The notes under the pieces are model-generated. The model worked only from the letters and a program-made list of their open reading frames with translations, did no database searches and was not told where the DNA came from. A stretch of 50,571 bases of DNA, from positions 1-50,571 of the forward strand of contig JAHJPG010000086.1 of the NCBI GenBank assembly GCA_018819925.1, read 5' to 3'. Source of the DNA: Pseudomonadota bacterium. Lineage in GTDB: Bacteria > Desulfobacterota > Desulfarculia > Desulfarculales > Desulfarculaceae. This document shows positions 3,182-15,231 of the stretch, piece after piece (positions within the stretch are counted from its first letter, which is position 1; every line of letters begins with the position of its first letter). The position numbers were made by a program, and so were the translations under genes.

Positions 3182-3754
3182 ATGGAGTTGTTGCAAGCCA
3201 TCCAAGAACGGCGCAGCGTGCGGGCCTTCACCGGCCAGCCGGTGAGCCCCGAGCAGGTGGATTCCTTGATCCAGGCGGCGGTGTGGGCCCCCAGCCCCTT
3301 GCACCAGCAGCCCTGGTCCTTCGTGGTCATCCGGAGCGAGGAGGCCAAGGCCAAGGTCAAACAGCTTTGCCGGGCGGCCAAGCAGGGGGTTGCCGACGCC
3401 GGCGGCCCGGAGTGGGCGCACAAATACAGCTTCGATTTCCTGGATCAGGCCCCGGTGTACGTGGCGGTGCTCTTTGACCCCAACAAGAGCGGTCTGGGCC
3501 CCTATTTCAACCAAGCCCATGGGGCCTTGCAGGCGGCCTCGGCGGCGGTGCAGAACCTCATGCTGGCCGCCACCGCCCAGGGCCTGGGCAGCCTGTGGCT
3601 CACCTTCTTCGACCCCAAGGCCATGGCCCTGGCCCTGGGCGCCTCCGAGGGCCTGGAAGTGGCGGGCATAATTCCCCTGGGCACGCCGGCCGGCGAGGTG
3701 AAGGCTCCGCCCCGCAAACAGCCCAAGGTTTTTATCGACGCCTACGGCCAATAG
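3182..3754 (+). CDS. nitroreductase family protein
   Basis: FMN-dependent nitroreductase-fold oxidoreductase, 190 residues. The N-terminus has the family motif RRSVRAFTGQPV for FMN phosphate contact, followed by WAPSPLHQQPW. The C-terminal part has the GLGSLWL segment and ends in a lysine-rich strand. A GAGGGG-like Shine-Dalgarno lies just before the ATG. It is 27 bases after the acyl-CoA ligase and probably the last gene of that operon. Possible roles are reduction of nitro groups, quinones or an enoyl/aromatic intermediate; the exact substrate cannot be read from sequence. Confidence 0.82.
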   Translation: MELLQAIQERRSVRAFTGQPVSPEQVDSLIQAAVWAPSPLHQQPWSFVVIRSEEAKAKVKQLCRAAKQGVADAGGPEWAHKYSFDFLDQAPVYVAVLFDPNKSGLGPYFNQAHGALQAASAAVQNLMLAATAQGLGSLWLTFFDPKAMALALGASEGLEVAGIIPLGTPAGEVKAPPRKQPKVFIDAYGQ

Positions 3755-5225: not shown

Positions 5226-6746
5226 ATGAAGCCCGTTGTAACCTACCGCCCCATCATGGTGGCCGGCACCGGCAGCCACGTGGGCAAGAGTGTCTTGGTC
5301 ATGGGCCTGTGCCGGCTGTTCAAGCGCCGGGGCATCGACGTGGCCCCCTTCAAGGCCCAGAACATGGCCCTGAACTCGGGCATCACTCCCCAGGGGCACG
5401 AGATCGGCCGGGCCCAGGTGGCCCAGGCCCAGGCCGCCGGCCTGGAGCCCTCGGTGGACATGAACCCCATACTGCTCAAGCCCGGGGGGCACACCTCCTC
5501 CCAGGTGGTGCTCATGGGCCGGCCCCTGGGCAACTTCGGCGGGGGCGACTACTACCGCCTGAAACCCCGCCTGACCAAGACGGTGATGGCCGCCTTCCGC
5601 CGCCTGAGCGCTGGGCACCAGCTGGTGATCCTGGAGGGGGCCGGCTCCTGCGCCGAGGTTAACCTCAAGCGTCACGACCTGGTGAACCTGCCCATGGCCC
5701 GCCGGGCCGGGGCCAAGGTGATCCTGGCGGCGGACATAGACACCGGCGGGGTTTTCGCCCAGGTCCTGGGCACCCTCAAGCTGATGACTCCCGGCGAGCG
5801 CAAGCTCATGGCCGGAATAGTCATCAACAAGTTTCGCGGCGATCCGGCCCTGTTCACCGATGGCATCGAGTATCTCGAGCGCAAGGGCGGGGTGCCGGTG
5901 CTGGGGGTTCTGCCCCGCTTCGAGCACATCCTGCTGCCCCAGGAGGACGGGGTGGCCCTGGAGCGGGGCGAACTGAAGGGCCAGGCGGGTTCGGTGCGGG
6001 TGGGAGTGGTTCGCCTGAGCCACATCAGCAACTACACCGATTTCGACGCGCTGGCCGCCTGTCCGGGGGTGGAGCTTTCCTGGCTGGAGCGGCCCGATGA
6101 GCTGGCCGGCCTGGACCTTCTTATACTGCCGGGCACCAAGAACACCCTGGCCGCCCTCAAGCGCCTGCGCGAAAGCGGGCTGTTCCAGGCCATCAAGGCT
6201 TTTCACACCCTGGGGGGCAAGGTGCTGGGACTCTGCGGCGGGTATCAGCTCCTGGGCTCGGAGATAGCCGATCCCCAGGGAGTGGAGGGCCCGCCGGGGC
6301 AGGAGGCGGGCCTGGGGCTCCTCGCGGTGTCCACGGTGATGGCCGGGGACAAGACCACCACCCGGGTGGAGGCCCGGTGCCAGCCCGGCCTGCCCTTCGC
6401 GGTGTCCGGGCCGGTGGCGGGCTACGAGATACACATGGGCCGAACCAGGACCCTGGGCCCCGGCCGCCCCGCCTTTCGCCTGGTCCAGGTGTTGGGCCAA
6501 GCGGTGGGCCAGGACGAGGGCCAGGTGAGCCCCGGCGGGCGGGTGGTGGGCACCTATCTGCACGGGGTGCTGGACAACGACGATTTGCGCACGGCCCTGT
6601 TGGCCTGGGCCCGTGGCGGCGCCGTCCCGGAGCAGGCCGGCGGCTACGCCGCCTTCCGGGAGGAGCAGTACGAGCTGCTGGCCGACCTGCTGGAGCGGCA
6701 CCTGAACTTAGACGGTTTGCTGGAGTTGGTGACGGCCCGAGAATAA
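5226..6746 (+). CDS. cobQ: cobyric acid synthase CobQ/CbiP
   Basis: Glutamine-dependent amidation of adenosylcobyrinic a,c-diamide to adenosylcobyric acid in the cytoplasm, using ATP. At 506 residues it has normal family length. The N-terminal dethiobiotin synthetase-like domain has GTGSHVGKSVLVMGLCRLF (about 15-33) and FKAQNMALNSG. The C-terminal class I-like amidotransferase domain has the nucleophile Cys337 in GLCGGYQLLG and His446 in GTYLHGVLDND. It ends about 50 bases before the first of two cobalamin riboswitches. It is therefore upstream of that control and is not itself governed by these riboswitches. Confidence 0.93.
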   Translation: MKPVVTYRPIMVAGTGSHVGKSVLVMGLCRLFKRRGIDVAPFKAQNMALNSGITPQGHEIGRAQVAQAQAAGLEPSVDMNPILLKPGGHTSSQVVLMGRPLGNFGGGDYYRLKPRLTKTVMAAFRRLSAGHQLVILEGAGSCAEVNLKRHDLVNLPMARRAGAKVILAADIDTGGVFAQVLGTLKLMTPGERKLMAGIVINKFRGDPALFTDGIEYLERKGGVPVLGVLPRFEHILLPQEDGVALERGELKGQAGSVRVGVVRLSHISNYTDFDALAACPGVELSWLERPDELAGLDLLILPGTKNTLAALKRLRESGLFQAIKAFHTLGGKVLGLCGGYQLLGSEIADPQGVEGPPGQEAGLGLLAVSTVMAGDKTTTRVEARCQPGLPFAVSGPVAGYEIHMGRTRTLGPGRPAFRLVQVLGQAVGQDEGQVSPGGRVVGTYLHGVLDNDDLRTALLAWARGGAVPEQAGGYAAFREEQYELLADLLERHLNLDGLLELVTARE

Positions 6747-6748
6747 AC

Positions 6749-6777
6749 TTGACGAGGGAATAACTCTGGCGTAGGAA
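6749..6777 (+). promoter_or_regulatory. candidate promoter upstream of the first cobalamin riboswitch
   Basis: TTGACG, a 17-base spacer, then TAGGAA, right after the cobQ stop and ending 17 bases before the riboswitch P1 helix. The -35 is strong and the -10 weak. The position is what a promoter for the riboswitch-btuB transcript would need. Confidence 0.35.
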
Positions 6778-6793
6778 ATTAGGCAACATCGGG

Positions 6794-6951
6794 AAACGGT
6801 GCCTCAGGGCTTAATAGGGAAGACGGTGCGATACCGTCGCGGTCCCGCCGCTGTAACCGGGGACAAAGGCTGCAAAGAGCCACTGCCGGCCTCAAGGCCG
6901 GTGGGAAGGCGCGGCCCGAGGATGATCCGGGAGCCAGAAGACCTGCCGTTT
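6794..6951 (+). promoter_or_regulatory. cobalamin riboswitch, first of two
   Basis: The sequence shows the conserved cobalamin aptamer core in order: AGGGAAGACGGTG, CCCGCCGCTGT, the B12 box AGCCACTG (6878-6885), GTGGGAAGGC, and GCCAGAAGACCTGCC. P1 can form between AAACGG (6794-6799) and CCGTTT (6946-6951). The expression platform that follows includes AAAGAGTC/GACTCTTT arms (about 6957-6964 and 7009-7016) and the strong terminator at 7047-7078. This arrangement predicts transcription termination when cobalamin is bound. Confidence 0.9.
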
Positions 6952-7046
6952 TTCAAAAAGAGTCCCGGCCGGCGGTCACCGGCCATGGCCGCCGCTAGTT
7001 GGCTGCCAGACTCTTTCTGGGGAGATCAAGCAAACTGGGTGCAGTC

Positions 7047-7078
7047 CCCCCCGTCCTGTACAGGGCGGGGGGTTTTTT
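7047..7078 (+). terminator. rho-independent terminator of the first riboswitch
   Basis: A 12-bp inverted repeat, CCCCCCGTCCTG pairing with CAGGGCGGGGGG (one G-T pair), closes a tiny loop and is followed immediately by TTTTTT (7073-7078). It lies between the two aptamers, so it can act as the OFF element of the first. Confidence 0.85.
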
Positions 7079-7140
7079 ATGGTTCGCCCCGGGGTCTCCC
7101 GGGGCCTAAAGGGGAGGCAGGCAAGCCTCCCAGCATATCG

Positions 7141-7284
7141 GGCTGGATGCGTGGAAGTGGCGTGAGATTCGCCCGCTGCCCCGCAGCCGTGAGGGGAACG
7201 AAAGCCCAACAAGCCACTGTCGCGCGGGGCGCGATGGGAAGGCGGGCCGGTAGGACGCCCCAAGCCGGAAGACCCATCCAGTCC
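7141..7284 (+). promoter_or_regulatory. cobalamin riboswitch, second of two, next to btuB
   Basis: A second complete aptamer: GAAGTGGCGTGAGATTC, GCTGCCCCGCAGCCGT, the B12 box AGCCACTG (7211-7218), ATGGGAAGGC and GCCGGAAGACC. P1 is CTGGATG (7143-7149) with CATCCAG (7275-7281). No intrinsic terminator follows. The btuB Shine-Dalgarno GAGGGAGG starts about 9 bases after the aptamer, so control at translation initiation is likely. Two G+C-rich hairpins (CCCCGGGG/CCCGGGG near 7087 and GGGAGGC/GCCTCCC at 7112-7131) separate it from the first terminator. Confidence 0.9.
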
Positions 7285-7307
7285 GTGAACCTCGAGGGAG
7301 GAATTTA

Positions 7308-9179
7308 ATGAGGAAGATGCTGGTTATATTGGCTGGGCTGACCCTTATGGCCGCCCAGGCCGCACCTGTTTGGGCCGCAGAGAGCGCCTCCGAGGAGGAA
7401 GGCAAGGCCAAGGCGGTTCATCAGGGCGAGATGGTGGTCACCGCCACCATGACCGAGGAGGACTTAAACAAGGTCCCCTCCACCACCTTCGTGGTGACCG
7501 ATCTGGAAATCAAGGAAAAGGCCCAGTGGAGCCTGATGGACGCCCTGCGCGACGTGCCCGGCGTCTACATCCGCAGCAATGGCCCCTTTGGCGGCGCCAC
7601 CGGCCTGAGCATGCGGGGCGCCCAGGACGGCCAAACCCAAATCATGCTGGACGGCGTGCGCCTGGCCGATCCCATCTCCACCAGCGGGGTCATGAACATC
7701 GCCAGTCTGCTCACCGGGGGCGTGTCCCAGGTGGAGGTGGTGCAGGGGCCCCAGTCCACCCTCTATGGCTCCGACGCCATGGCCGGCGTGGTCAACATCA
7801 TCACCAAGCGCGGCCAGGGCAAGCCCTCGGGTTGGGCCTCGGGCAGCTTCGGCTCCCACAACACCTGGCAGGGCTCCGCCGGCGCCCAGGGCCAAGTCGA
7901 TCGCTTCAACTTCATGCTCTCCGGGGCGGGCGTAACCACCGACGGCATCTCTAAAGTGAAGATCGGCAGCGAGAACGACCCCTACCGCGCCTATCAGTTC
8001 AACGGCCGTTTCGGCTATGACCTGAACGACAACACCGAAGTCTACTTCATCGGCTACTACAACCAGTCCAAGACCGACTACGACGGCTATGGCGCAACCG
8101 GCCTCATCGACACCCAGGACAACACCGAGGTGACCTCCTACACCAGCATCTTGGGCCTGACCAACGCGCCCTTGGCCTGGTGGAACCACAAGCTGACCTT
8201 CTCCTATGGCTCGGTGGACCGCGACTACAACGACGGCTCCACCTTCACCTCCTACCTGACCACCGCCCAGTGGCGGCACAACCTGCTCTACAAGGACATC
8301 AACACCGCGACCCTGGGAGTCAATTGGCAGCAGGAGCAGGGCGAGTACAGCGTTCCCGGGGCCTGGGGCGACACCCTGGACAAGAAGACCGTGGACACCC
8401 TGAGCTTTTATCTGCAAGACCAGCTCAAGGTGTTGGAGGGCCTCTATCTCCTGGGCGGCATACGCAACGACCACCACGACGGCTTCGGCAACCGGATGAC
8501 CTGGCGGGTGGGCGCCTCCTACAACCTGGCGGCCAGCGGAACCACCTTCAAGGGCACTTACGGCACCGGCTTCAAGGCCCCCACCCTCTATCAGCTCTAC
8601 AGCCCCTACGGAAGCCAGGACCTGGGCCCGGAGAAGAGCAAGGGATGGGACCTGGGCGTGGTGCAGCAGCTATGGAACAAGCGCATCAAGCTGGGGCTCA
8701 CCTACTTCAACATCCAGACCGACGACCTGATCAGCTTCGACCTGAACACCTGGAAGTTCAACAACCTGGAAGAGGTGAAGAGCCAAGGGCTGGAATTCTA
8801 CGCCCAGGCCCACTTGCTGCCCTGGCTGGGGGTGGACTTCTCCTGGACCTACACCGACGCCCAGGACCAGGGCACGGACAAGGACCTGGCCTACAACCCC
8901 CGGGACAAGGGCACCCTGGGAGTGCGTCTGCCGCTCATGGGCGACCGCCTCAACATCAGGGTCTGGGCTCTGTACGTGGGCGACCGCTACACCGACGCGG
9001 CCAACACCGGCGAGGTGGACTCCTATATCACCGTGAACGCCACCGCCACCTACAAGCTCACCAAGTGGTTAAGCGTCTACGGCAACGTGATCAACCTGTT
9101 CGACGAGGATTACGTGGAGATTCAGGGTTACAACACCCTGGGTCTCAGCGGCTTCCTGGGCCTGCGGGCCGAGTTCTAA
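7308..9179 (+). CDS. btuB: BtuB-like TonB-dependent receptor (cobalamin/corrinoid uptake)
   Basis: Outer-membrane beta-barrel receptor, 623 residues. It has a signal peptide (about 1-26, ending VWAAES), a TonB box-like GEMVVTATM (about 41-48) and a plug domain with DVPGVYIRS, LDGVRLADP and YGSDAMAGVVNIITKRG. A 22-strand-type barrel follows and ends in Phe (GLRAEF), as expected for BAM-dependent insertion. A GGGAGG site lies 8 bases before the ATG. Two cobalamin riboswitches directly upstream make cobalamin or a related corrinoid the very likely ligand. No btuFCD genes are in the window, so the inner-membrane step is encoded elsewhere. Confidence 0.9.
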   Translation: MRKMLVILAGLTLMAAQAAPVWAAESASEEEGKAKAVHQGEMVVTATMTEEDLNKVPSTTFVVTDLEIKEKAQWSLMDALRDVPGVYIRSNGPFGGATGLSMRGAQDGQTQIMLDGVRLADPISTSGVMNIASLLTGGVSQVEVVQGPQSTLYGSDAMAGVVNIITKRGQGKPSGWASGSFGSHNTWQGSAGAQGQVDRFNFMLSGAGVTTDGISKVKIGSENDPYRAYQFNGRFGYDLNDNTEVYFIGYYNQSKTDYDGYGATGLIDTQDNTEVTSYTSILGLTNAPLAWWNHKLTFSYGSVDRDYNDGSTFTSYLTTAQWRHNLLYKDINTATLGVNWQQEQGEYSVPGAWGDTLDKKTVDTLSFYLQDQLKVLEGLYLLGGIRNDHHDGFGNRMTWRVGASYNLAASGTTFKGTYGTGFKAPTLYQLYSPYGSQDLGPEKSKGWDLGVVQQLWNKRIKLGLTYFNIQTDDLISFDLNTWKFNNLEEVKSQGLEFYAQAHLLPWLGVDFSWTYTDAQDQGTDKDLAYNPRDKGTLGVRLPLMGDRLNIRVWALYVGDRYTDAANTGEVDSYITVNATATYKLTKWLSVYGNVINLFDEDYVEIQGYNTLGLSGFLGLRAEF

Positions 9180-10813: not shown

Positions 10814-11767
10814 TTAATGCATCAGGTTCTGGCTGACCCGGATTACCGCCGGGCCGGCCATGACCACCATGATGGCGGGGAAGATCATGAATAGAACCGG
10901 GAACAGCAGCTTGAGGGGAATCTTGGCCGCGGCCTCCTCCATCTGCTGGCGGCGCTTGGTGCGCACCATGTCCGAGTGCACCCTGAGCGAGCGGCCCACG
11001 CTCACCCCGAAGCGGTCGGCCTGGATGAGCATGGTCGCCAGGCCGCCCACTTCCTCCACCCCGCAACGCAGGGCCAGGTTTTTCAGCGCCATGGGACGGG
11101 GAATGCCCGCCCGCAGCTCCAGGGACACCAGGTTGAGCTCCGTGCCCAGCACCGGGCAGGAGAGCACCACCTCCCGGGACACCCGCCGGATGGCCTGGTC
11201 CAGGCCCAGGCCGGCCTCCACCGAGATGACCAGCAGGTCCAACACGTCGGGCAACTCCCGGGTGATGGCCTTGCGCCGGGAGCGGATGCGCCGCTCCAAC
11301 AAAAGCTGGGGCAGGAAGAAGCCCAGGGTGGCCGATCCCACCAGGGCCAGAACGAGCTGTAAATGGCCCAGGCGGCCCGGCAGGGGGGTGAGTAGCACCA
11401 GCAGGGGAGAGGCGATGAGCATGGCCACTTTGACGCCCAGAAAGGTGTTCACCGCGCCGGGGGTGTGAAAGCCAGCCTGCAACAGCTTGGTCTTAAGGTC
11501 GCTCTCTTGCCAGTTCTGGCGGGGCTTGGCCGGCTTGGCCAACTGACTGAGCAGCTTGAGCAGAACCCGGCGGAGCTTTTCCTTGGGGGATTTGCCCGGC
11601 TCGGTTTGCGCCTGGCCGCCTAGTTGTCGAAGGCGGCGCTGCAGGCTTTTGTCGCGCTTGATGAGCAGGGATGCCAGGGCGGACACGGCCAGGAGCACCG
11701 CCAGCCCGAAGGCCAGGCCGATGAGCCAGGGGGAGGCGCTGGCGCCCAGGGCGTTGATCAGCTCCAT
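10814..11767 (-). CDS. tadC: Tad pilus inner-membrane platform protein TadC
   Basis: Type II secretion F-domain membrane protein, 317 residues. It has an N-terminal helix (about 12-35), a basic cytoplasmic loop, a helix pair near 115-150, the T2SSF domain at about 170-290 (LPDVLDLLVISVEAGLGLDQAI) and a C-terminal helix (LFPVLFMIFPAIMVVMAG). It should pair with TadB to form the platform that converts TadA ATPase motion into Flp polymerisation. Its ATG follows the tadB stop by one base. Confidence 0.92.
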   Translation of the reverse strand: MELINALGASASPWLIGLAFGLAVLLAVSALASLLIKRDKSLQRRLRQLGGQAQTEPGKSPKEKLRRVLLKLLSQLAKPAKPRQNWQESDLKTKLLQAGFHTPGAVNTFLGVKVAMLIASPLLVLLTPLPGRLGHLQLVLALVGSATLGFFLPQLLLERRIRSRRKAITRELPDVLDLLVISVEAGLGLDQAIRRVSREVVLSCPVLGTELNLVSLELRAGIPRPMALKNLALRCGVEEVGGLATMLIQADRFGVSVGRSLRVHSDMVRTKRRQQMEEAAAKIPLKLLFPVLFMIFPAIMVVMAGPAVIRVSQNLMH

Positions 11768-11768
11768 A

Positions 11769-12740
11769 TCACACCTTCAGGTTGATGAGTTTGCGGATCA
11801 CCAGAATGCCCAGCCCCTGGAAACAGCCGCCCACCATCAGCAAGGTCTTGCCCATGGGGTGCTCGAACAGGATGCCCAGGTAGTTGGGGCTCAAAAACCA
11901 CAGGGCCCCCAGCAGGCCCGGGGCCATGAGGCACAGGATGTAGGCGCTGATGCGTCCCTCGGCCGACAGGGCCTTGACCTGGCGCAGCAGGGCGAAGCGG
12001 GCCCTGATGATATGGCCGATGTTGTCCAATATCTCGGTGAGGTTGCCGCCGATTTCCCGTTGCAGGGCCACGGCGGTGGCAAAGAACTTGACGTCCTGCA
12101 GGCCCACCCGCCGGGTGAGGTCGGCCAGGGCGTCGTCCAGGCCCTTGCCATAGGAATAGTCTTCGAAGGTGCGGGACAACTCCTCGGCCACCGGATCGTT
12201 CAGCTCCTGGGAGGCCATCTTGAGCCCCGAGCCGAAGGAGTGCCCGGCCCTCAGCGCCCGGGCTATGAGGTCAACCGCCTCCACGAACTGCTCCTCAAAG
12301 GCGGCCAGGCGGCGCTTGCGCAAAAAGCGCAGCCACATCAGGGGCAGGGCCCCGCAGCCCACCAACAGCAACAGAGACCCCACCAGGCTGCCTTCCAGCA
12401 GCCCTCCCCCCAGCAGGCCCAGGCTGGCCAGCACACCGCTCATGAGCACCAGGGTGCCCAGGTTGCAGGGGGAGCCGGCCTGGTGAATGAGAAGTTCAAG
12501 GTCGGCGATGTTGGGCAGGTGGCTCAACAGCCGGTCCAGATAGGGGATGGAGGAGTAGGAGCGGTCGCGGAAATAGCTCTTGATGGCCGCCTGCATGGCG
12601 GCCTCGCCCGGGGCGATGGCTTCCAGGCGGCGTTGGGTGGCCGTCTCGCGGGCGACTTGGCCCGCGTAGAGCAGGCGAAAAAGCGCCCAGGCCGCGGCCA
12701 GCAGGGCCACGAAAATAATCGCGGTGAAGCCCCAGATCAT
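11769..12740 (-). CDS. tadB: Tad pilus inner-membrane platform protein TadB
   Basis: Type II secretion F-domain protein, 323 residues. An N-terminal helix ([20 protein letters not shown]) is followed by helices near 100-140, the F domain ([40 protein letters not shown]) and two C-terminal helices. The start overlaps the tadA stop as ATGA, with an AAGGAGG site inside the end of tadA, so translation is coupled. Confidence 0.92.
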
Positions 12741-14098
12741 AGCCCGCCCCTCCTTGTCTCGCTCCCGCCAAAGAGTTCGGCGCCCAGGTCGATGCCGAAG
12801 GCGGCGATGCGGTCGCTCCAGCGGGGCCGGATGCCGCTGGGCCCGAAATGCCCAACCACCCGGCCGCGTTCGTCCACCCCGGTCTGGGTGAAGCTGAATA
12901 TCTCCTGCATGGTCAGGGTTTCGCCCTCCATGCCGGTGAGCTCCTGCACGCTGGTAACCCGCCGGGAGCCGTCGGCCAGGCGGCTCACCTGGATGACGAT
13001 CTGTATGGCGCTGGCGATCTGCTGGCGGATGGCCTTGTCGGGTATGTCCAGGCCGGCCATGGAGATCATGGTCTCCAGGCGGCTGATGGCGTCGCGGGCG
13101 CTGTTGGCGTGCACCGTGGTCAGGCTGCCGTCGTGGCCGGTGTTCATGGCCTGCATCATGTCCAGGGCCTCGCCGCCGCGCACCTCGCCCACCACGATGC
13201 GGTCGGGCCGCATGCGCAGGGCGTTCTTCACCAGGTCGCGCATGGCCACCTCGCCCAGGCCCTCGATGTTGGGCGGCCTGGTCTCCAGGCGCACCACGTG
13301 CTCCTGTTGCATCTGCAGCTCGGCCGAGTCCTCGATGGTCACGATGCGCTCGCGGTGGGGGATGAAGGAACTGAGCACGTTGAGCAGGGTGGTCTTGCCG
13401 GTGCCGGTGCCCCCGGAGATGAGCATGTTAAGCCGGGCCTTGACCGCGGCCTCCAGAAACTGGGCGGTCTGGGCGCTGAAGGAGCCCAGGCGCACCAGGT
13501 CGTCCACCCTCAGGGGATCGCGGGCGAACTTACGAATACTGAGCGCCGGGCCGTCCAGGGCCAGGGGTGGGATCACCGCGTTCACCCGGCTGCCGTCGGC
13601 CAGGCGGGCGTCAACCATGGGCGAGGACTCGTCGATGCGCCGTCCCACTCCGCTGGCGATCTTGTCGATGATCTTGAGCAGGTGCTCGTCGTTGCGGAAG
13701 CGCACCGGTATGCGGGTCAAACGGCCGCCGCGCTCCACGTAGACACTATTATAGCCGTTGACCAGGATTTCAGAGATGGAGTCGTCGGCCAACAGCGGCT
13801 CCAAGGGGCCCAGGCCCATGACCTCGTTTTTTATCTCCCGGGCCAAGGCCTCGCGCTCGGCCAGACTCATGGGTTCGGGCTCGGACTCCACCACAAGGCG
13901 GATGGCGTCTTCCAGGTCATGCTCCGCCTGCCCCTCCTGGGTGTTGCTGAGGACCGAGAGGTCCAGCGATTCGATCACCTTGTAATGGATGCGCGCCTTC
14001 ATCTCCTGCAAGGCGGAATCCCGCTGGCGGTCGCGTTGGCGGTCGTCAGCGGACGGCCCCACCGGCGAGATTCCCCCCAGCCTGGCCCGCAAGCTCAT
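12737..14098 (-). CDS. tadA: Tad pilus assembly ATPase TadA/CpaF
   Basis: Secretion ATPase of the VirB11/CpaF class, 453 residues from the ATG at 14098 (site GGAGG). A longer frame upstream is only a shadow over tadZ. It has an N-terminal region (residues 1-100), then Walker [11 protein letters not shown], an Asp box ([14 protein letters not shown]), Walker B-region [17 protein letters not shown] and His box [18 protein letters not shown]. It is the cytoplasmic hexameric motor for Flp pilus extension. It overlaps tadZ upstream and tadB downstream by 4 bases each. Confidence 0.95.
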
Positions 14099-15231
14099 TT
14101 GCCACCTCCGTTGCCGCTGAACAGCTCCTTGGCCAGGGATGCCACCGCCTTGCTCCACTTGGAGCGGGGCCAGTCCCGGGCGGGGGGGCGGCCCGCGTTG
14201 GCCGCGGCCATGAGCACCGCGCTGTCGTTGGGCAGCAGGGCCAGGGGGGTCAGCTTGAGCACCCGGGCCACCTCCTTGGGCGCCACGCACTGCTTGGCTC
14301 CGTGGCGGTTGACCACCACCGCCACCTCCTCCTTTTCCCGCCCCAGGCTGCGGCAAAGCTCCAGGGCCCGCTGGGCCGCCTTGAGCCCCAACACGGTGGG
14401 CTCTGTGACCAGCAGCAGCAGTTTGGCCCGGTCCAGGGCGGCCAGGCTGGCCTCGTCCACCCGCGAGGGCAGATCGGCCACCACCAGGGCGTGCTCGGCC
14501 AGGATGAAGTCCAGGGCCCGCTCCACGTGCATCCCCTTAATTTCTTCGGCGGCCACGGCATCGCCCGGCGAGGCCAGCAGGCGCAGCCCCGGGGCCGCGT
14601 CCACCATCAGGCTGTCCATGATCAGGTTGTCCAGGCGCTCGAACTCCTCGGTCACGTGCAGCATGCTGCGGGTGGGCTCCAAATCCAACAGGGCGGCCAG
14701 ATCGCCGCCGGCCAGGTCCAGGTCCACCAGGGCCACCCGGGCGCCCATGCTTTGGCTGGCCACCCAGGCCAGACTGAGCGCCAGGGAGCTGGCCCCCACC
14801 CCGCCCTTGACCCCCATCACCCCCAACAGGCGGCCCTGCTGGTCGCCGGGGGCGGCCGAGGTCAGAAGGCGTTGCAAGGCCTCGGCAAAGGCCGATCCGT
14901 CGGCCTGATTGGGCAAGTATTCCCTGACCCCCAGGCGCATGGCCATGAGGATGGCCTCGGGGCTTAGGTTTTGGGCCCAAGCCACCATGGCCCCCCGGGG
15001 CACTCCCCGGCGCAGGCGGGCCAGGAGTTCGCTCAGGCCCGTCTCGTCGGGGTCGAACTCCACCAGGAGCACCTCGGGCTGCAACTGCAAGGCCTTGCGC
15101 TCGAACTCCTCGGCGGTGGACTCCAGGCCGATAAGGCTGGCCCGGGGCGCGCCGGCCACCAATTGGCGCAGGCGCTCGCCTCCCTGGCGGGTGAGATGAT
15201 ATGCCAATACCTGGGGATCGTTGTTGCTCAC
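14095..15231 (-). CDS. tadZ: TadZ/CpaE-like pilus localisation ATPase
   Basis: MinD/ParA-superfamily protein, 378 residues, GTG start with a GGAGAAGG site. The N-terminal about 125 residues form a degenerate receiver-like domain ([19 protein letters not shown]). The C-terminal MinD-like domain has a deviant Walker [18 protein letters not shown], Ala replacing Lys/Thr at the usual catalytic spot, and Walker A' [11 protein letters not shown]. TadZ proteins set the polar location of the Tad machine. It ends in ATGA shared with tadA. Confidence 0.88.

Follow-up and report, generated by a model that had tools for sequence, protein, structure and literature searches.

The window analysed here, a 50,571-nt stretch from a member of the Desulfarculaceae (GenBank JAHJPG010000086.1, forward strand), contains two matches to the Cobalamin family RF00174 above threshold when scanned in full with Rfam, both on the plus strand. 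The aptamer of riboswitch 1 lies at 6780-6964 (122.9 bits, E 1.8e-30) and that of riboswitch 2 at 7128-7295 (74.2 bits, E 1.6e-16); both exceed the gathering score of 31.5 and span model positions 1 to 189, and the whole genome holds four cobalamin riboswitches in total. Reading along the plus strand, cobQ (cobyric acid synthase, 5226-6746; NF001989, 597.7 bits against a cut-off of 273) is followed by riboswitch 1, an intrinsic terminator of 11 bp, riboswitch 2 and the regulated gene, a TonB-dependent receptor (7308-9179), with no gene between the two riboswitches and one ligand class for both. For the receptor TIGR01779 is the best of all models at 274 bits, yet below its equivalog cut-off of 599.7, and the gene is therefore named btuB-like. 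The initial annotation had proposed two cobalamin riboswitches in series before such a gene, and both the scores and the presence of the pair in every one of the eight genomes available for the genus bear this out.

Between cobQ and aptamer 1 we identified a putative promoter (TTGACG, 17 nt, TAGGAA; 6749-6777, plus strand) that is conserved in the leaders: CTTGAC is invariant in 8/8, and TAnnnA follows 17 nt after it in the leaders as read by eye. The -10 element is weak and the consensus scan did not flag the site; the conserved CTTGAC and TAnnnA suggest a dedicated promoter. A conserved leader ORF at 6799-7308 was also considered and was rejected as a chance ORF, since the length differences between the eight leaders do not preserve its frame. 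No third known RNA element was detected in the leader with Rfam at E values up to 10, the extra matches all falling below gathering. The spacer separating the terminator from riboswitch 2 (7085-7127) can form GC-rich hairpins in six of the eight genomes and is about half as long in two of them (G005 and G010). In the wider surroundings, a nitroreductase-family gene near cobQ (3182-3754) has BluB, dimethylbenzimidazole synthase, as its best model (98.7 against a cut-off of 150), and downstream of btuB, on the minus strand at about 10814-15231, ORFs judged by eye from their translations resemble a Tad pilus locus, with TadB/TadC-like proteins and CpaF- and CpaE-like ATPases.

The aptamer of riboswitch 2 is built from P1 (7140-7149 with 7275-7284), P5-L5 (7175-7187) and a B12 box (7262-7279) and has no P2 hairpin, and the Shine-Dalgarno sequence GGGAGG (7296-7301) precedes the ATG at 7308 by 6 nt. 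Unaided, RNAalifold placed a 4-bp hairpin, CCUC-GNGG-GAGG, at this site, with the Shine-Dalgarno as its 3' side; here it reads CCUC-GAGG-GAGG (7290-7301) and corresponds to P13, so that the functional unit of the riboswitch reaches to approximately 7301. Across eight sequences 99.0% of cells in the structure are paired and 11 pairs display compensatory change, with 20 covariation cells where shuffles averaged 6.0; none of 500 shuffles was as high, and sliding the partners abolished the signal. One genome, G007, has replaced a P13 C-G pair by U-A, a compensatory change that alters its own Shine-Dalgarno. The kissing pairs between L5 and L13 comprise C7180-G7297, C7181-G7296 and C7182-G7294, with A7295 bulged, and in G010 one of them has turned from C-G to A-U, in the expected place and fitting the known L5-L13 kissing loop (PMC10653944), albeit as a single event, which counts against our preferred explanation. 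The terminator scan returned no terminator-like site between the second aptamer and position 7500, congruent with the initial annotation, which had this aptamer lie next to the Shine-Dalgarno without a terminator; P13 even contains it. Thus riboswitch 2 is a predicted translational OFF switch, and translation repression is well supported by the Shine-Dalgarno inside P13 together with the compensatory changes in P13 and the kissing loop.

Riboswitch 1 is organised differently. Its aptamer is complete with P2, has the L5 sequence UCCCG within 6839-6851 and the B12 box at 6931-6947, and is followed after P1 by three elements on the plus strand. The first, H1 (6967-6984, GGCCGG-CGGUCA-CCGGCC, dG -11.4), adjoins P1 and is a candidate P13-L13, as its loop resembles CG(n)GGA and is complementary to the UCCCG of L5; a hairpin with a CG..GA-like loop occupies this place in most leaders inspected. 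The second, H2 (7019-7051, conserved loop AAGCAAACUGGGUGC), is a candidate antiterminator hairpin, and its 3' arm doubles as the 5' arm of the third, the terminator (7047-7072, U-tract to 7078), which has 11 pairs and a dG of -23.0, was called strong in the initial annotation and is present in 8/8 leaders. The H2 loop (CUGGGU) has a GGG complementary to the CCC of L5; the H1 loop is a competing partner. Such a termination platform is usual in the family: the H2 motif AAG-N-GGGUGC within a stem recurs in 34 of its riboswitches (32 distinct), and the stem covaries. Pairing reaches 86.3%, where 500 shuffles gave no more than 69.1%, and double-change cells number 56, where the shuffles gave no more than 33; these figures are somewhat optimistic since the stem offsets were picked for maximal pairing and the shuffles ignore relatedness. 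In these 34 riboswitches the hairpin lies on the 5' arm of the terminator, and its loop is more conserved than its stem.

The genes located behind this platform include relatives of btuF, btuB, btuC, cbiK and cobB, all expected to be repressed by B12. From this context and the analogy to E. coli btuB we infer that H2 serves as antiterminator when no ligand is bound and that riboswitch 1 is an OFF switch. Against this, H2 alone is much weaker than the terminator (about -11 against -23 kcal/mol) and would hence need help to work. Switching through the 3' strand of P1 or an outer stem pairing with the 5' arm of H2 appeared in some folds and was dismissed, no consistent covariation being apparent by eye. 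Cobalamin riboswitches before thiC/bzaB-like genes, one of them in this very genome (L003, G000:C40:99419-99616, minus strand; further L010 and L031), carry a single hairpin with the loop GAUGGUAAA or GAUGGCAAA, the 3' arm of which is the 5' arm of the terminator; by analogy with the A. halodurans cobT layout, which they share, these are candidate activating corrinoid riboswitches. Three others (L024, L047 and L049) have an L5 of GCCCG and another platform, and the gene downstream of L024 encodes a drrA/nodI-like ATPase of an ABC transporter, which is an unusual gene to find under such control.

Aggregated, the first platform is transcriptional in its anatomy and the second translational, and we consider it likely that the leader is a bi-mechanism tandem corrinoid riboswitch through which uptake is repressed in two stages. 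RNA polymerase would start at the promoter just after cobQ and make aptamer 1. With corrinoid bound, L5 of this aptamer would kiss H1, H2 would not be held, and the terminator would halt transcription; without corrinoid, H2 would take the 5' arm of the terminator and the polymerase would read through. Any mRNA that escapes would carry aptamer 2, and corrinoid binding there would let its L5 kiss the P13 loop, hiding the Shine-Dalgarno, which forms one P13 strand, so that BtuB would remain untranslated. Two OFF layers would offer deeper repression and ongoing control of existing mRNA. As to the steeper response suggested in the initial annotation, simple arithmetic predicts that two equal, independent OFF switches in series would shrink the 90-10% range to about 40-fold, from 81-fold for one, and would multiply the maximal repression. 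Rodionov and colleagues have argued for a lowered threshold as the main effect of two ligand-repressed switches in series (PMC545781). Ligand binding by both aptamers and mutual exclusion of H1 and H2 are presumed in this scheme, and the signs of the layers are not equally secure: the OFF sign of the second, backed by covariation, is strong, and that of the first is inferred. The two-layer control put forward in the initial annotation is accordingly upheld for the translation block, and for termination in its anatomy.

The arrangement is a property of the genus. In all eight available genomes, the named relatives being Desulfarculaceae MAGs, the pair is found at the same place with cobQ before and btuB after it, in G006 split over two contigs with ends overlapping by 49 nt, and its retention in all of them excludes chance. 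An assembly artefact is ruled out by the eight separate genomes. As read from the coordinates, no genome outside the genus, in either the family or the order, shows a pair of matches that share a strand and lie within 400 nt of each other. Moreover, the two units are distinct. A closing P1 helix is present in both, as the initial annotation had it, and its statement that both aptamers are complete with intact B12 boxes holds as far as the full-model matches, with the provisos that the second is without P2 and has a variant box: in 8/8 genomes the box of aptamer 2 is GCCGGAAGACC and that of aptamer 1 GCCAGAAGACC, a G replacing the A in GCCAG. A model built from the second unit (R1) scores complete copies at 168-188 bits and first units at 59-67 bits. 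A recent duplication is ruled out by these widely separated scores, the missing P2 and the different L5; judged by its sequence, riboswitch 2 is not a copy of riboswitch 1.

The consistent difference of the aptamers in P2 and L5, observed in 8/8 genomes, also accommodates a reading raised in the initial annotation that we regard as unlikely, namely that they serve different corrinoids, for instance complete cobamides on the one hand and cobinamide or other lower ligands on the other, with the leader integrating two signals. Selectivity does vary among such riboswitches and is spread over aptamer and expression platform (PMC9600662), but no sequence rule predicts it, so the difference in itself does not point to a particular ligand.

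Doubtful to a further degree is an arrangement of opposite signs, in which riboswitch 1 would be activating, its L5 kissing the H2 loop instead of H1 when corrinoid is bound, thereby holding H2 and blocking the terminator, and riboswitch 2 would repress translation. The strand common to H2 and the terminator is the layout of the A. halodurans cobT switch, where one strand of the kissing hairpin P13 also belongs to the terminator and the outcome is an ON switch (PMC10653944), an overlap that also weighs against repression in two stages; the AAG and subsequent CNGGG loop resemble P13-L13 in the metE switch of P. megaterium (numbering of PMC10653944), and H2 is weak without a partner. Yet a separate L13-like H1 adjoins P1 in these leaders, unlike in A. 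halodurans, the order H1-H2 is found in E. coli btuB, which is repressed (PMC2258182, PMC10653944), and the platform stands before uptake and early synthesis genes. If the signs were indeed opposite, the leader would act as a band-pass, permitting BtuB synthesis at intermediate corrinoid levels alone, and corrinoid riboswitches with the H2-terminator platform of the family would form a large natural class that activates.

Two-stage repression gains further weight from other lineages. Within the class, the second-unit model reaches 124-188 bits in the genus only, the next best match being 78; among 395 genomes of the phylum it returns 95-151 bits in 22 further genomes, many with the same Shine-Dalgarno hairpin. 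With these matches, the idea that the genus itself invented the second unit is ruled out; the unit belongs to a translational subtype that is widespread and in most cases occurs by itself. The strongest argument for selection of the two-layer order is that in another family of the phylum three loci repeat it independently, a terminator-type riboswitch, its terminator and then a Shine-Dalgarno-type riboswitch: L091 in G210, before a btuB-like gene, and L094 and L095 in G257, one of them btuB-like, the first unit of L095 being read from the sequence rather than scanned. The two-layer order thus looks selected. A tandem of reverse order is found at L087 (G342, 1466-1881), where the Shine-Dalgarno type leads and 41 nt separate it from a second cobalamin riboswitch; the tandem precedes a btuB-like gene, and a short ORF may lie between its riboswitches. 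In another genus of the family, the btuB orthologue of G011 (53% identical) has a single riboswitch of the terminator type. This single switch, the lower score of the second unit and its lack of P2 would suit one working riboswitch beside a copy decaying after insertion, a relic that we deem very improbable, as both units are kept in eight genomes, the first with its terminator in each and the second with compensatory changes, and the subtype of the second is found by itself elsewhere. The two-layer control is thus supported by its conserved anatomy, by covariation and by the recurrence of the order in another family.

Tandem AdoCbl leaders are rare, at under 1% (PMC2258182), and 26 doublets have been listed, classed as pseudo-cooperative with mechanisms not comprehensively evaluated (PMC9481103). 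They resemble the present locus in having two complete cobalamin riboswitches before one gene with no ORF between, whereas here both the platforms (terminator, then Shine-Dalgarno) and the aptamer subtypes differ. Bi-mechanism tandems have been described for SAM-II/SAM-V and some SAM-II doublets (PMC9481103); the SAM-II/SAM-V tandems likewise combine a first unit with a terminator and a second at the ribosome-binding site for the same ligand class, but employ two aptamer classes for SAM, in contrast to two subtypes of one class for corrinoids. In the open-access literature we found no description of an AdoCbl pair using termination and then Shine-Dalgarno sequestration. Both tandem and bi-mechanism kinds being known, what appears to be new is this order in an AdoCbl tandem, which would carry bi-mechanism control, described for SAM, over to vitamin B12, here with two subtypes drawn from a single aptamer family; the genus-wide set and its recurrence elsewhere represent a natural test of why two switches are stacked for one ligand.

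For the first layer, the E. coli btuB leader, used as a control, is a close parallel: it regulates btuB, and two hairpin loops, CGCGU and then CUGCG, both complementary to the L5 region over 5 nt, precede its expression hairpin, which unlike here belongs to a single riboswitch and hides the ribosome-binding site. Similarly, in the repressing P. megaterium metE and the activating A. halodurans cobT switches, L5-L13 kissing and mutually exclusive hairpins decide termination (PMC10653944). Riboswitch 1 differs from these in having two L5-complementary hairpins, H1 and H2, the latter overlapping the terminator, and its platform bears on how the sign of a corrinoid riboswitch is set.
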